Shown in pieces: positions 15,255-21,905 of a stretch of DNA of 35,090 nt; within the stretch, counting starts at the first letter, position 1, and each line of letters starts with the position of its first letter. The notes below the pieces were generated by a model, which was not told the DNA's origin, ran no database searches, and saw nothing but the letters and a program-made list of their open reading frames with translations. The stretch is taken from positions 1 through 35,090 of the forward strand of contig JACRGQ010000007.1 of the NCBI GenBank assembly GCA_016217735.1, in the 5' to 3' direction. Position numbers and translations under genes: made by a program. The stretch is from Nitrospinota bacterium. GTDB taxonomy: Bacteria > Nitrospinota_A > UBA7883 > JACRGQ01.

Positions 15255-16256
15255 TCAGCCCACTATTTTTACCGCTTCGCCGCACGATAGGCAATGTCCC
15301 TTTTTCACGCCGGTCACCGACACGGCGTAGCCGTGCCGTTCGATGAGCATGTGGCCGCAGAAGGGGCAGAGGCTGTGGCTGAACTCCTCCACGTCGGCGT
15401 TGCCGATGAAAACGTATTTGAGGTGTTGCTTGGCTATCCGCGCGGCGCGGACCAGCGTCTCCACCGGCGTGGCGGGGATATCCAATTTGTACATGGGATA
15501 GTACCGGGAGAAGTGCAGCGGCATGAACGGGTCGACGGAGGCGATAAAGCGGGCCAGCTTTTCAAAATCCCCGTCGGCGTCGTTGAGCGTGGGGATGACC
15601 AAATTGGTGATCTCGATGTGGGCTTTGCCGGCGGTGGCCGCCACGTTGCGCAGGACGGGGGGGAGCCACCCCTTGCATATGTGCCGGTAGAAGGTTTCGT
15701 TCATCGATTTGATGTCGATGTTGAGCGCGTCGATAAGCGGCAGCAGTTCGTCATACGGTTCCGGCTGCAAGTGCCCGTTGCTCACCAGCACGTTCACCAT
15801 TCCCGCCTCTTTCACGGCGCGGCAGGCGTCCAGCAGGTATTCGTACCACATCAGCGGCTCGGTGTAGGTGTAGGCCACTCCCACGCCGCCGCTCTCCTTC
15901 GCGGCGCGCACCAGCTCTTCCGGACTCAGGTAGCGGGTGGGGGCGGATTGCTGGCTGATCTGGTAATTCTGGCAAAAGCGGCAGCCGAAGTTGCAGGCGT
16001 TCGGCCCGGCGCTCAGTATCTCCGTGCCGGGATGGAAGTGGTAGAGCGGTTTTTTTTCCATCGGATCGAGGTTGAGCGACGTGGTGAGGCCGTAGGCGCT
16101 TGCGATCAGTTCGCCCCCTTCGTTTGTTTTCGCCATGCAGATGCCGGTTTTGCCCGGCTTCACGATGCAGTGGTGGGGGCAGAGGTGGCACGCGGCCGAC
16201 CCGTCCGGCCGTTTTTCCCAGTAGCGGGCCGTTACCCGCGGCGCGGCGGCGTTCAT
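15255..16256 (-). CDS. amrS: AmmeMemoRadiSam system radical SAM enzyme
   Basis: 333 residues. The radical SAM cluster motif is CNFGCRFCQNYQIS (CxxxCxxC). The N-terminus carries CHLCPHHCIVKPGKTGIC, a cysteine set typical of this PflA-like subgroup, and the C-terminus has a CPFCG...HCLSCG pair that could bind zinc or iron. The protein resembles pyruvate-formate-lyase activating enzymes but belongs with AMMECR1 and Memo partners. In this window only AMMECR1 is adjacent, and its stop overlaps this start by four bases (ATGA). No Memo gene is seen. Its substrate is not established. Confidence 0.9.
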   Translation of the reverse strand: MNAAAPRVTARYWEKRPDGSAACHLCPHHCIVKPGKTGICMAKTNEGGELIASAYGLTTSLNLDPMEKKPLYHFHPGTEILSAGPNACNFGCRFCQNYQISQQSAPTRYLSPEELVRAAKESGGVGVAYTYTEPLMWYEYLLDACRAVKEAGMVNVLVSNGHLQPEPYDELLPLIDALNIDIKSMNETFYRHICKGWLPPVLRNVAATAGKAHIEITNLVIPTLNDADGDFEKLARFIASVDPFMPLHFSRYYPMYKLDIPATPVETLVRAARIAKQHLKYVFIGNADVEEFSHSLCPFCGHMLIERHGYAVSVTGVKKGHCLSCGEAVKIVG

Positions 16257-16997: not shown

Positions 16998-18833
16998 TTA
17001 TTGTCCGGCGGGTGCGGGCCGTAATGAGCCGCTAAAGACCGCGGCGTAGGCATTTTCCAATCTTTTCAAAAACTCGTCGGCGTTGATGAAGCCGGTGAAG
17101 CGGTCTTTCTCCAGCCCGTCCGGCCCGATCAGGATGACGGTGGGTACCCCCAGCACGTTGTACTCTTTTTTAGCGGCTAGTTCATCCGGCTCCACGGTGG
17201 TCAAGTCGACCGCGAAGGCGTCGAACGTCCCGTTCTTCGCCCGTACCCGATCGTCGGCGAAGGTGAAGCTCTTCAGTTCGCGGCAGGGGACGCACCAGTC
17301 GGCGGTGAAATCCAAAAGCACCGGGCGGCCCGCCGCCGCGGCCTTTGCCACCGCTTCTTTGCTGTAGGGCTTGAACGTTATTCCCTCTTTCGCCGGATGG
17401 GAAGAGGGGATGAGGAAAAATCCCGCCGCAATGAGGGCGAACCCGATGCCGAAGCGGAAGAAGGAAAAAACCGCCCCGCCCGTTCCTTTGCCGGCCCAGA
17501 GGAGATATATGCCCCCCGCCGCCGCCACGCCCGCCCCCAGCCAGCCGTAAAGAATCCCGTTGGGGATAAGCGGCCGGGCGAAATACAACGCCATGCCGAG
17601 AAGGACGACGCCGAACATTTTGCGCACCCAGACCATCCATACGCCGCTGCGGGGGAGCTTTTGCAGCGAGCCGCTGAAGATGGCCAGGAAGACGAACGGC
17701 GTGCCGAGGCCGAGCGCCAGCGTGAAGAAAAGGGTGAAGCCGAGCAGCGGGTCTTGCCGCTCGCCCACGAAGGTGAGCAGGCCGATGACGAACGGCCCCA
17801 CGCACGGCGCCGCCATGATGCCGACCGTCAGCCCCATCACGAAGGTGCCGAGGAATCCCCCGTAGATTTTGCACGCAAATTCCATGAGGACGGCCGGAAC
17901 CACGATCTCGAACGCGCCGAACATCGAAGCGGCGAGCAGCAGCATCACTCCCACGAGCAGGATCACCACCAACGGGTTTTGCATCAACTGCCCGAAGAGC
18001 GAGCCGGTGAGCGCCGCCGCCACCCCCAGCGCGGAGTACATCAGCGCCATGCCAAGCAGGTATACCAACGCGTGGGCCACGGTGTGGCCGCGCGAGCGGC
18101 CGGTGGCCGCGCCGAAAAAGCCGATGGTGACCGGGATGAGCGGGTAGACGCAGGGAGTGAGGGTAAGCCCCAGTCCGCCCAAAAAGACCAGCAGCAGCGC
18201 CATCGGCCCCAAGCCGCCCTTCAACGCGTCGAGCGCCGGGGTGGATGTCCCCGCCGCGTGCGCCGCATGGCGGGAAAACAGCTCCGGCTCCAGCGGTTTA
18301 CCGTCCGTTCCCAGCGCGAGCGGAACGGTGATGTCGGTTTCCACCGGGATCATGCAGGCGAAGTCGGTGCAGGCCTGGTATTGCAGGCGCGCGGTGATGG
18401 CAAGCGGCTCCTTGGCCCCCTCGGTAAAGCTGATGGAGGCGGCGATGTAGACGGTTTTTTCGTACACGCTGAGCGGCTCTTTGGCGAACTTGAATTTTTT
18501 CAGGATGGGATCGGGGAAGGTTACGCGCCCCACCGTCACCGCCGGGTCGCTCGCGAAAAAAATGACCGTGGTGGGGATGAGCGCCGGCTCCAGCGGTTTT
18601 GCGCTGTTGATGTGGAATCCTTCTTTAATGGCCAGTTCCAGCAGCACGGGGTAGCTGTTGCCCGTCGCGAATTTCGTTTGGGGCAGGACCAGGCGCGGGG
18701 CGACGGGCAACTCGGCGGCCTTCGGGGCGGCGGCCTCGGCGCCAAACGCGGAAAAGGCGTCGGCGGCCCATGCGGGTGCGGCCGGCGCAAGCGGAATGAG
18801 CATTGCTAGCAGGATGGCAAGGTGTTTTTTCAT
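16998..18833 (-). CDS. dsbD: Thiol:disulfide interchange protein DsbD
   Basis: 611 residues, full length for the family. A signal peptide (about 1-23) leads to the periplasmic alpha domain (about 30-190) with its redox pair in YQACTDFACMIP. The membrane core of about eight helices (about 205-470) carries the conserved Cys-Pro motifs LTLTPCVYPLIPVTIGFFGA and GIMAAPCVGPFVIGLL. The C-terminal periplasmic thioredoxin-like gamma domain has LDFTADWCVPCRELKSF with the active CVPC. All three Cys pairs needed to pass electrons from cytoplasmic thioredoxin to the periplasm are present. It may serve cytochrome c maturation or disulfide repair; no ccm genes are near. No SD is clear before the ATG at 18833. 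Confidence 0.95.
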   Translation of the reverse strand: MKKHLAILLAMLIPLAPAAPAWAADAFSAFGAEAAAPKAAELPVAPRLVLPQTKFATGNSYPVLLELAIKEGFHINSAKPLEPALIPTTVIFFASDPAVTVGRVTFPDPILKKFKFAKEPLSVYEKTVYIAASISFTEGAKEPLAITARLQYQACTDFACMIPVETDITVPLALGTDGKPLEPELFSRHAAHAAGTSTPALDALKGGLGPMALLLVFLGGLGLTLTPCVYPLIPVTIGFFGAATGRSRGHTVAHALVYLLGMALMYSALGVAAALTGSLFGQLMQNPLVVILLVGVMLLLAASMFGAFEIVVPAVLMEFACKIYGGFLGTFVMGLTVGIMAAPCVGPFVIGLLTFVGERQDPLLGFTLFFTLALGLGTPFVFLAIFSGSLQKLPRSGVWMVWVRKMFGVVLLGMALYFARPLIPNGILYGWLGAGVAAAGGIYLLWAGKGTGGAVFSFFRFGIGFALIAAGFFLIPSSHPAKEGITFKPYSKEAVAKAAAAGRPVLLDFTADWCVPCRELKSFTFADDRVRAKNGTFDAFAVDLTTVEPDELAAKKEYNVLGVPTVILIGPDGLEKDRFTGFINADEFLKRLENAYAAVFSGSLRPAPAGQ

Positions 18834-19016: not shown

Positions 19017-19994
19017 ATGGGCGATACGTGCAAATATCTGTTCCGCGATAACACGCCGTGCGCGGAACCCGTCCATCCCGGTTCCGGCGTATGTTTCTGG
19101 CACGATCCGAAGGCGGATAAAACAGGCCCGGAGATAAAAGCGCTGATCGAGGCAAAACACAAGCGCGGCGACAAGCTGGAAGGGGTCGTGCTCAAGGACG
19201 CCCAACTGGAGCAGGTTAAGCTTTCACGGGCAAACCTCTACGCCGCGAATTTCAAATGGGCGAATCTCAAAAACGCCCATTTGTATGGCGCGGACCTGAC
19301 CCATGCCGCGCTGTTTAAAACCGCGCTGGACGGCGCGAACATGAAAGAGGCGAAGCTGCGGGACGCCGAACTGCTGGGCGCGACGCTGGAATATACAAAG
19401 CTGGACTTCATCGGTTTCGGCGGCGAAGACGGGTATACGGTGAAAAACGAGACCGAAGGGGAAGCGCACGAAAAAAGGGGCGAGACCGATCAGGCCCACG
19501 CGAAATATTTCGAGGCCGAGGAGATATACCGCGCCATCAAGCTCAACCTGAAAAACAGGGGGATGGGTTTCGAGGCCGGCGAATATTTTTTCAAGGAAAT
19601 GGTGATGATCCGGAAACAGATACCGTTCTATTCGTTCAACCGGTTCTGGTCGAAGCTCATGAGCGTCTCCACCGGATACGGGGAAAAGCCCCACCGGATC
19701 ATCGGATTTTCGGTGGCGTACATGTTCCTGTGCGCCGCGATTTTCAGCTTTATCGGGATACATCACGCATCGGGAAATTTTTTCCGGTATTCATCGAACG
19801 CCACGGCGGCCGAAAATCTGCGGGTGTTTTACGATGCGCTGTATTACAGCGTGGTGACGTTCACAACGCTTGGATACGGCGATTTCACGCCCGTCGGCAT
19901 CGGGAAAATGATCGCCATCGTCGAGGCGTATTCAGGGGCGTTTTGCATTTCGCTGTTCAGCATCTCCACCTATAAGAGGTACATGGACAGGTAA
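19017..19994 (+). CDS. Pentapeptide-repeat protein with C-terminal K+ channel domain
   Basis: 325 residues. The N-terminus contains MGDTCKYLFRDNTPC and CFWHDPKAD, a Cys/His cluster that may bind zinc (C5, C15, C27 and H30 as counted by eye). Residues about 55-135 are pentapeptide repeats, A(N/D)LXX units such as SRANLYAANFKWANLKNAHL. A charged helical linker follows (about 140-220), then a two-helix ion channel: TM near 230-255, pore TTLGYGDFTP with the GYG potassium filter, TM near 300-320. The filter means it probably conducts K+, and the repeat part likely senses or anchors. GGGGGAGG lies nine bases before the ATG. The gene is alone on its strand and ends before the hairpin at 20006. Confidence 0.85.
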   Translation: MGDTCKYLFRDNTPCAEPVHPGSGVCFWHDPKADKTGPEIKALIEAKHKRGDKLEGVVLKDAQLEQVKLSRANLYAANFKWANLKNAHLYGADLTHAALFKTALDGANMKEAKLRDAELLGATLEYTKLDFIGFGGEDGYTVKNETEGEAHEKRGETDQAHAKYFEAEEIYRAIKLNLKNRGMGFEAGEYFFKEMVMIRKQIPFYSFNRFWSKLMSVSTGYGEKPHRIIGFSVAYMFLCAAIFSFIGIHHASGNFFRYSSNATAAENLRVFYDALYYSVVTFTTLGYGDFTPVGIGKMIAIVEAYSGAFCISLFSISTYKRYMDR

Positions 19995-20038: not shown

Positions 20039-21457
20039 TCACAGCATAAGCGTGTCGAACGTGGTGCGGGCGCCTTTGTCCCATCCGTCCCACAGGTAAT
20101 CGTTATCCTTGCCGTCGGCGATGGCGCGCAGGGCGTACCGCGTCTGTTCCTCATAGAACTCGCAAAAGGAGCCGGTGGCTTTCATGCCGCCGTTCGCCTC
20201 GTGCGCTTCGGCGGGGCAGGGCGAGCCGCAGAAATGGCGGATGGCGCACTTGCCGCACGCTTTTATATCCTCCACCTTGCGTTCGGTCACCATTTTGAAC
20301 GCTTCGCTTTCCAGCACGGCGTCGACGCCATCCTTGAAAAGATTGCCGCCGTTGAACCGGGCCAGCCCGACAAATTCGCTGCACGGAAACAGATCGCCGT
20401 TCGGCGCCAGCGCGAAAAACGCGCGTCCGCCGCCGCAGGGGGAGATGTCGCACATCAGCCGCCGGGCGGTGGGGGCCAGAATACTTATCAGGATGTTGGC
20501 GAAATTCGCCACCACCAGCTTGCGCCCGGTCTTTTTGTACAGTTCGTGCGAGCGGTCCAACGCCGCGAGGAAATGCCGCGCCGAGGGTACATCGGCCGGC
20601 TTCACCGCCAGCGAGGGGGGCAGCGTGCAGCGCACGATGTTCAGCAGGCAGTTGGGGACGTGCCGCGCATGGAGGTAATCCACCATGCTGGAGAGGTGGC
20701 GCATGTTCCCGCTGGTGATGGTGCAGATGACGCTGAAGCCGTGATAGCCTTTCAGCTTTTCGATGGTCTCTTCGACTTTTGCGAAAACCCCTTTGCCGGT
20801 CCAGTTGGTCCGCGTTTTATCGGCGATGGCGGCGGTGTGGCCGTCCAGCGAAAGCCCGATGCTGACGTCCCGCGCGGTGAGGAAGGCTGTGGCTTCGTCA
20901 TCCAGCAGCGTGGCGTTGGTCTGTATGCCGAACTGGAAATCATCCCGGTACTTTTCGATGCCGCGGAACACCGCCTCGCGGTTCAGCATCGGCTCGGCGC
21001 CGTGGAAGATGATTTGCGGCAGGCGGCCTTTGGGCATGGTTTTGCGGAAATGGGTTTTCAGTTTCGCCAGCGCGGCGAGAAGCTCCTTCTCCGTCATGTG
21101 CCGCCCGTTTTTCCGCATGTCGCCCGGTATGTAGCAGTAGGCGCAGTTCAGGTTGCACTGCTCGGTGGAATTGAAATAGACGGCGGTCGGCTTCAGCCCG
21201 AACCGGAGCATGTTCATCTCATCGGCGAACTTCTTGCTTTTCTTTTTGTAGCCGGAGATGAACCGGGAGCTGGTAAGCGTATCGGCCAGCTTCTCTTTTT
21301 TCACCAGCGACCAGAACGCCGTATCCGGGTCGATCAGGCCGATGTACTCTTTGTGGCCGATGTCTATCGGCACGATGGAGGGGCCGGTGCCGCTGTTGAA
21401 ATAGAGGCCCCGCGAGGGGGCCTCCGCCACGGTGGCCTGCTTACGCGCCGCTGCCAT
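20039..21457 (-). CDS. cbpB: CbpB-type radical SAM/SPASM peptide maturase
   Basis: 472 residues. The radical SAM motif is CNLNCAYCYIPGDM near residue 120. The C-terminal SPASM region (about 345-440) has a spread of cysteines, CDISPCGGG, LFPCSEF, CGKCAIRHFCGSPC and GSFCEF, for extra iron-sulfur clusters. It should modify the 38-residue peptide encoded just upstream. The ATG at 21457 overlaps the cbpA stop (TGATG) and has AAAAGG in reach; a GTG three bases earlier is in frame. The gene pair and its cobalamin riboswitch match the CbpA/CbpB system that I know from family annotation; the chemistry and biological role of the product are not known to me. Expression is controlled through the riboswitch entry. 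Confidence 0.85.
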   Translation of the reverse strand: MAAARKQATVAEAPSRGLYFNSGTGPSIVPIDIGHKEYIGLIDPDTAFWSLVKKEKLADTLTSSRFISGYKKKSKKFADEMNMLRFGLKPTAVYFNSTEQCNLNCAYCYIPGDMRKNGRHMTEKELLAALAKLKTHFRKTMPKGRLPQIIFHGAEPMLNREAVFRGIEKYRDDFQFGIQTNATLLDDEATAFLTARDVSIGLSLDGHTAAIADKTRTNWTGKGVFAKVEETIEKLKGYHGFSVICTITSGNMRHLSSMVDYLHARHVPNCLLNIVRCTLPPSLAVKPADVPSARHFLAALDRSHELYKKTGRKLVVANFANILISILAPTARRLMCDISPCGGGRAFFALAPNGDLFPCSEFVGLARFNGGNLFKDGVDAVLESEAFKMVTERKVEDIKACGKCAIRHFCGSPCPAEAHEANGGMKATGSFCEFYEEQTRYALRAIADGKDNDYLWDGWDKGARTTFDTLML

Positions 21458-21573
21458 CACTTGGCCTTTTTGCTCGCCGAGAGGATGTAGTGCGACAGGC
21501 CGGTGCCTTTGGGGTCGCAGCTTTTGCGGCTGGCGATGATGTCTTTCCTGGGGGTTGCGGTTTTCTTTTTCAT
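21457..21573 (-). CDS. cbpA: CbpA-like modified peptide precursor
   Basis: A 38-residue peptide, MKKKTATPRKDIIASRK, then SCDPKGTGLSHYILSASKKAK. It is basic with one Cys and a GTGLSHY core. The start at 21573 has AAAGGGA eight bases upstream; the longer frame to 21642 runs into the terminator hairpin and is not translated sequence. Its stop overlaps the cbpB start. Radical SAM maturases with SPASM domains act on such precursors, probably at the Cys or nearby residues of the DPKGTG core, but the modification site is a guess. Confidence 0.8.
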   Translation of the reverse strand: MKKKTATPRKDIIASRKSCDPKGTGLSHYILSASKKAK

Positions 21574-21603
21574 AGTTAAGTCCCTTTCCAAATCAAAAAA
21601 GCC

Positions 21604-21650
21604 AAAAAAAAAGGGTTCCGACAAGTTCCCCATGGAACTCATCGAAACCC
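21604..21650 (-). terminator. Intrinsic terminator, expression platform of the cobalamin riboswitch
   Basis: On the minus strand a 17-base arm (21650-21634) pairs with 21629-21613, with G-U wobbles and few mismatches, across a four-base loop, and is followed by nine T's (21612-21604). It ends 30 bases before the cbpA start and lies directly downstream of the riboswitch, so it should stop transcription when the ligand is bound. Confidence 0.85.
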
Positions 21651-21674
21651 TTTACCATACGGATTCCGCACCCA

Positions 21675-21905
21675 ACCTTGACTACAGCAGGCCTTCTGGC
21701 TTTCGGATCGTCCGCCCGGTTGCGGCCTTCCCGCCAGGGTGTGCCCCGGCAGTGACCGTCCGCTTTATTGCTAAAGCGGCCTGTGCAACCTTGCGTCCCC
21801 GATTACAGCGGCGGGACCGCCACGGATTTACACCGTGTTTCGAGATGCTGAAATCTACTGGCTATTCGGGGCGACTATATCCGCCACGGCGGCGCCTTGT
21901 CAATC
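21675..21905 (-). promoter_or_regulatory. Cobalamin (B12) riboswitch
   Basis: Reading the minus strand, the core motif GGTGTAAATCCGTGGCGG (from about 21842 down) is followed by TCCCGCCGCTGTAATC and, further on, AGCCAGAAGGCCTGC (about 21707-21693). These are the conserved B12-box pieces (GGTGxAAxTCC...GCxGTCCCGCxxCTGTxA and GCCAGAAG-CCTGC) in the right order. The edges are approximate. Family knowledge: such switches shut down expression when adenosylcobalamin is plentiful, so cbpA/cbpB should be expressed when B12 is scarce. Confidence 0.9.

Follow-up and report, generated by a model that had tools for sequence, protein, structure and literature searches.

The locus described here raises a question of sign and one of purpose: when a cobalamin riboswitch precedes the genes for a very short peptide and a putative peptide-modifying radical SAM enzyme, does vitamin B12 turn those genes off or on, and what might the product do? 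The genes lie in a 35,090-nucleotide stretch of DNA from a Nitrospinota bacterium (contig JACRGQ010000007.1), the whole of which is referred to as the window. We read the locus as a two-gene RaS-RiPP cassette, that is a radical SAM enzyme with its own precursor peptide, of the CbpA/CbpB family and under a corrinoid-sensing transcription-termination switch. Taken jointly with the activating mechanism, cysteine link and corrinoid role proposed below, this reading is modestly favoured by the evidence.

The elements follow one another on the minus strand in the order promoter-like site, cobalamin riboswitch, terminator, Shine-Dalgarno sequence, cbpA and overlapping cbpB. The sigma-70-type promoter-like sequence TTGACA-N18-TATAGT (21903-21874) has 11 of 12 consensus matches. 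The aptamer scores 59.3 bits against Rfam RF00174 (21841-21691; gathering score 31.5, E 2e-12), with both B12 box and core present, and 129.4 bits against our own covariance model R1 (21850-21689); the sequence of its loop L5, the kissing-loop partner, is UCCCG (21812-21816), which equals the published L5 consensus (PMC10653944). A P13- or antiterminator-like hairpin, CGGAAUCC[GUAUGGUAAA]GGGUUUCG, occupies 21643-21668. The intrinsic terminator has a perfect 17-bp stem (21650-21634 with 21629-21613) enclosing an AUGG loop, and a T9 tract (21612-21604) comes directly after the stem. Compared with their own shuffles, the terminator segment folds 5.1 sd lower and the leader as a whole 6.0 sd lower. 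A Shine-Dalgarno-like GGAAAGGGA (21589-21581) then stands 7 nt before the ATG of cbpA (21573-21457), which encodes a 38-residue precursor peptide, MKKKTATPRKDIIASRKSCDPKGTGLSHYILSASKKAK, whose conserved unit comprises residues 10-36. The gene cbpB (20039-21460) starts at ATG 21457, overlapping the cbpA stop, or at the alternative GTG 21460, and ends at 20039. The cobalamin core, T9 terminator, Shine-Dalgarno sequence and 38-residue peptide picked out by the sequence-only reading are thus all present. The presence of the listed parts is far beyond chance, and dozens of genomes across many phyla have the same arrangement of genes and leader.

Other parts of the window encode proteins of separate interest. 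A plus-strand gene convergent with cbpB (19017-19994) specifies a protein in which pentapeptide repeats are joined to an ion-channel pore domain. On the minus strand lie a DsbD-like protein with a thioredoxin domain (16998-18833), its top match being the TsoB model, at a score under the TsoB cut-off, and an AmmeMemoRadiSam-system radical SAM enzyme (15255-16256; 294 bits against a cut-off of 220).

The naming of the pair as CbpA and CbpB proved right, and its membership of that family (NCBIfam TIGR04164 and TIGR04163, 'cobo_pep' and 'rSAM_cobopep') is virtually certain. CbpA, whose gene adjoins cbpB, scores 44.9 bits against a TIGR04164 cut-off of 35, and CbpB scores 691 bits against a TIGR04163 cut-off of 375, residues 31-456 aligning with positions 3-428 of the model. 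The window pair is like the NCBIfam family in gene order and single-cysteine peptide, with no structural difference. A literature search for CbpA/CbpB, the TIGR numbers and B12-linked RiPPs found, in the library covered, no paper describing the family, which is named only. A single scan of GTDB genomes gave 423 encoding stretches, from which the best 80 loci were taken; these show 58-94% identity and come from more than 10 phyla. On the CbpB protein tree the phyla are scattered, with 26 changes against a minimum of 12, which suggests that cbpAB has been transferred between phyla, binning errors being a possible contributor. Within Nitrospinota, CbpB occurs in 8 of 24 genomes and CbpA in exactly those eight; CbiC presence does not set cbpAB-positive apart from cbpAB-negative members. 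Tandem units aside, no orphan or second CbpA was present across 58 genomes searched. One copy is plasmid-borne (Methylovirgula sp. HY1 plasmid pHY1, locus L097), near pqqADE and with no cobalamin riboswitch nearby.

Comparison of the peptides from 77 loci, the window included, yielded 74 distinct units with the consensus R-x-x-C-x3-G-x-G-L-S-H-[YF], in which seven residues (R, C, G, G, L, S and H) are invariant. The sequence-only reading had regarded a conserved GTGLSHY core and the single Cys as likely modification targets. The cysteine, residue 19 of the window peptide, stands: being invariant, it is the best candidate for modification in CbpA. The threonine fares less well, since V, A, I or M replaces it in 17 of the 74 units, Thr being retained in 57, so that threonine is not needed as a target. 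The final Tyr gives way to Phe in four units. Three gammaproteobacterial peptides (L037, L040, L078) carry two tandem core units, and the only loci to lack a full unit are those cut by a contig end. In the shortest precursors, of 29 residues (L055, L065), the unit begins nearly at the initiating Met with almost no leader, indicating that a long leader is unnecessary.

The Pfam domains of CbpB are Radical_SAM and SPASM, and its cysteines are those of a radical SAM/SPASM maturase: a CX3CX2C motif (C102/C106/C109) and seven SPASM cysteines (C342, C360, C402, C405, C411, C415 and C433), all invariant in 50 sequences. Judged by these cysteines, we infer three [4Fe-4S] sites as in CteB and PapB. The predicted structure (pLDDT 86) has CteB and anaerobic sulfatase maturases as its closest folds, with TM values of 0.67-0.75 to the nearest solved structures, and by sequence also CteB (PDB 5wgg) is the nearest solved relative (E 6.8e-21). 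N-terminal strands and helices are modelled at residues 30-87, and a search for RRE families gave no match. The nearest other family is PapB (model NF047865), at 141.8 bits against a cut-off of 340. PapB, a ranthipeptide maturase (PMC9413430), and the SCIFF maturase CteB share the radical SAM and SPASM domains of CbpB and form thioethers; CbpB differs in scoring under their cut-offs, and CbpA in having a single Cys and, in some members, almost no leader. By analogy with these enzymes, CbpB would join the invariant CbpA cysteine to a residue close by, within the equally invariant G-x-G-L-S-H segment. We consider such a cysteine crosslink fairly likely; a Cys-derived crosslink into GxGLSH would be the most economical chemistry given homology to CteB and PapB, other chemistries being possible.

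The connection of cbpAB with B12 is real and takes two forms. Searching with a covariance model built from 37 cbp leaders and with Rfam scans placed a cobalamin riboswitch directly upstream of cbpAB in 56 of the 73 relatives having enough upstream DNA. Thirteen of the remaining 17 loci sit inside B12 synthesis or salvage clusters, among cbiB, cobD, cobS, cobT, cobU, cobQ, cbiA, cbiC, cbiM, btuFCD and btuB. Three loci that at first looked unlinked proved otherwise: L076 has its own riboswitch, L054 lies in a cluster headed by one and, in our own reading, cbpAB of L083 directly follows cbiC. No B12 link was seen for L022, L048, L053 and L057 within the DNA examined. Riboswitch-led and cluster-embedded arrangements interchange at least six times on the CbpB tree, so that the B12 association arose repeatedly. 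Five Omnitrophota-type genomes whose operons are of the salvage type (L051, L060, L063, L081 and L085) keep cbpAB, and CbiC was not detected in them; allowing for possible incompleteness of these genomes, the pair is thus not tied to corrin ring synthesis. A PF01902 (DUF71-type) gene neighbours cbpAB in L051, L063 and L085. The DUF71-B12 subgroup, which has a predicted role in B12 salvage (PMC3541065), offers a parallel in being known only by its clustering with btuCDF and cbiB, although the protein itself is of the PP-loop ATPase type and unrelated to CbpA or CbpB. An asparagine-synthase-like gene adjoins cbpAB in the B12 salvage operons of L051, L060, L063 and L085. Among the loci examined, no exporter, peptidase, receptor, immunity or other non-B12 gene recurs beside cbpAB; two recurring neighbour clusters (7 and 19) were rejected as genes, being antisense shadow ORFs of cbpB and cbpA.

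The sign of the switch can be approached through the layout of its expression platform. Mutational analysis has shown that a repressing corrinoid switch has P13 as a separate element whose 3' side pairs with a terminator arm, and that in the activating cobT switch of Alkalihalobacillus halodurans P13 and terminator share an arm, P13 being stabilised by L5-L13 kissing; this rule relating layout to sign is experimental but is based on one tested activating riboswitch (PMC10653944). In the window, positions 21650-21643 form the 3' side of the P13-like hairpin and also open the 5' arm of the terminator. The same holds for the family: between B12 box and terminator the leaders conserve GGAAUC-[UGAUGGyAAA]-GGGUUCC..., where GGGUUCC serves both as 3' side of the small hairpin and as terminator 5' arm. 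Both structures covary, the terminator in 299 of 342 pair cells (262 in shuffles) and the competing hairpin in 209 of 234 (198 in shuffles). The identification of a terminator switch by the sequence-only reading is right. The layout persists where the arms have changed, entirely so in L021 and, judged by eye, in L055 and L065. Three alphaproteobacterial leaders (L049, L059, L073) keep the hairpin and lack the U-tract. Cultured carriers of cbpAB include the alphaproteobacteria Rhodopseudomonas rhenobacensis DSM 12706 and Blastochloris sulfoviridis DSM 729, whose leaders are without a U-tract.

A terminator was detected in 41 cbpAB leaders, and in 39 of them the most stable GG-loop hairpin is the one that overlaps the terminator arm. 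The same genomes supplied a control set of 60 other B12 riboswitches; of its 20 terminator-bearing members, 5 scored as overlapping (Fisher p 2e-8). Loop types also separate the groups: of 52 cbp leaders, 45 have a hairpin with an AUGGyAAA loop and 5 one with a CG.GG loop, the corresponding numbers among the 60 controls being 5 and 33. Four of the overlapping controls (L158, L162, L163, L176) were set aside as probably not activating, on account of an extra upstream CG.GG-type hairpin, found by motif in L162 and L163 and by eye in L158 and L176. The fifth (L171/L192, genome G038) combines a AUGGUAAA / GAUGGUAAA loop with P13/terminator overlap and stands upstream of cobT, the same gene as that of the tested activating switch (PMC10653944). 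Another control, a cobalamin riboswitch with an activating-like platform of cbp type (L181/L191; G040:C154:2680-3318) lies before a zinc-type alcohol dehydrogenase-like gene, followed by a trpD-like one in our own reading.

With the A. halodurans cobT switch the cbp leaders have in common the shared arm, an xCCCG sequence in L5 and a 9-10-nt L13 containing UGG; they differ in controlling a modified-peptide cassette and in often lacking the fourth kissing pair. UCCCG of L5 can form three pairs with UGGU, the GG-CC bases being invariant and so without covariation, and the variable fourth L5-L13 pair does not covary across the cbp leaders. The repressing metE switch of Priestia megaterium (PMC10653944) is of the same aptamer class as the cbp leader and likewise termination-based, but its P13 stands apart from the terminator arm, to which it is complementary. 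By folding energy the cbp hairpin (about -8 kcal/mol) is far weaker than the terminator (about -28 kcal/mol), so that it can prevail only if something stabilises it. We envisage that, with corrinoid bound, L5 would kiss the AUGG loop of the P13-like hairpin and hold it closed, the terminator could not form and cbpAB would be transcribed; with no corrinoid, the far stronger terminator would win and cbpAB would be off. As the cbp hairpin shares the terminator arm, in the published activating layout, B12 probably turns cbpAB on, the sign being judged from layout, conservation and contrast with the controls.

The most serious competitor is an ordinary repressing riboswitch, by which B12 would turn cbpAB off and the peptide would be made in B12 limitation, for instance as a corrinoid scavenger. 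Nearly all known cobalamin riboswitches do repress, some cbpAB pairs (L085, L043) stand in operons led by other riboswitches, and L077, L081 and perhaps L047 have the CG.GG-loop hairpins typical of non-cbp controls, those of L077 and L081 counting as repressing-type. Salvage operons of the L085 type place cbpAB after a switch of that same CG.GG kind. By their sequences, cbpAB regulation is not uniform, L077, L081 and the plasmid copy lying off the main pattern. For the family at large, however, repression needs a separate upstream P13 whose 3' side acts as antiterminator arm. At least 18 of the cbp leaders lack any further GG-loop hairpin that could act as P13, and in most of the rest such hairpins are very weak. 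The unaided hairpin is also unlikely to serve as antiterminator against so strong a terminator. As for scavenging, the window's genome has CbiC and only two cobalamin riboswitches, the cbpAB leader and one heading a large cbi/cob operon, so that the host appears to make B12 itself, and the neighbourhood survey provided no recurrent exporter, receptor or peptidase. Repression is, on balance, distinctly the less probable sign. The suggestions that the peptide helps cells under B12 limitation and perhaps scavenges corrinoids consequently fare poorly: the first is unsupported, the leader having the published activating layout, and the second is less obvious in such a host.

If the switch is activating, a B12-sparing or starvation role for the peptide becomes less likely. 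The short product would most likely remain in the cell and act in corrinoid handling, salvage or late assembly; an intracellular corrinoid role is suggested because cbpAB also lies inside cob/cbi/btu operons, some of them in genomes where no corrin-ring marker gene was detected. cobT supplies a precedent for control with either sign, since CobT acts on corrinoids that arrived or were made. Corrinoid handling, suggested by this analogy, is the least certain step, a tentative assignment falling short of an even chance.

Three further functions seem improbable, in increasing degree. In the first, the modified peptide would mature into a small redox cofactor replacing a B12-dependent reaction: the peptide/radical-SAM pair does resemble the logic of PQQ and mycofactocin, and B12-independent substitutes such as NrdDG are often riboswitch-controlled (PMC545781), yet no partner oxidoreductase recurs near cbpAB, the Tyr is replaceable by Phe and an ON switch has the wrong sign. 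Slightly less probable is a cobalt metallophore or cobalt-insertion helper for corrin ring synthesis; cbpB is immediately upstream of cbiM (cobalt uptake) in L067, L072 and L069, against which stand the five salvage-type genomes without detected CbiC. Least probable is an antimicrobial or signalling RiPP under incidental B12 regulation, for although many RaS-RiPPs are secreted in such roles (PMC8326336), the peptide varies extremely little between phyla, immunity and export genes are missing nearby and the pair occurs inside B12 operons.

The two-fold B12 link, the refined peptide unit and the activating-type leader layout are new relative to the sequence-only reading. The fullest reading, that the leaders of cbpAB are a family of activating corrinoid riboswitches, widespread and spanning phyla, which switch on a modified mini-peptide for corrinoid handling when corrinoids are present, seems to us as likely as not. 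If the switch is activating, peptide production would be expected in the presence of B12 rather than in B12 starvation, deciding the condition in which to look for it, and the cbp leaders would make a large natural set for studying reversal of riboswitch sign. A B12-linked peptide kept almost constant from Nitrospinota to Alphaproteobacteria and Planctomycetota suggests that some part of B12 biology is still missing.
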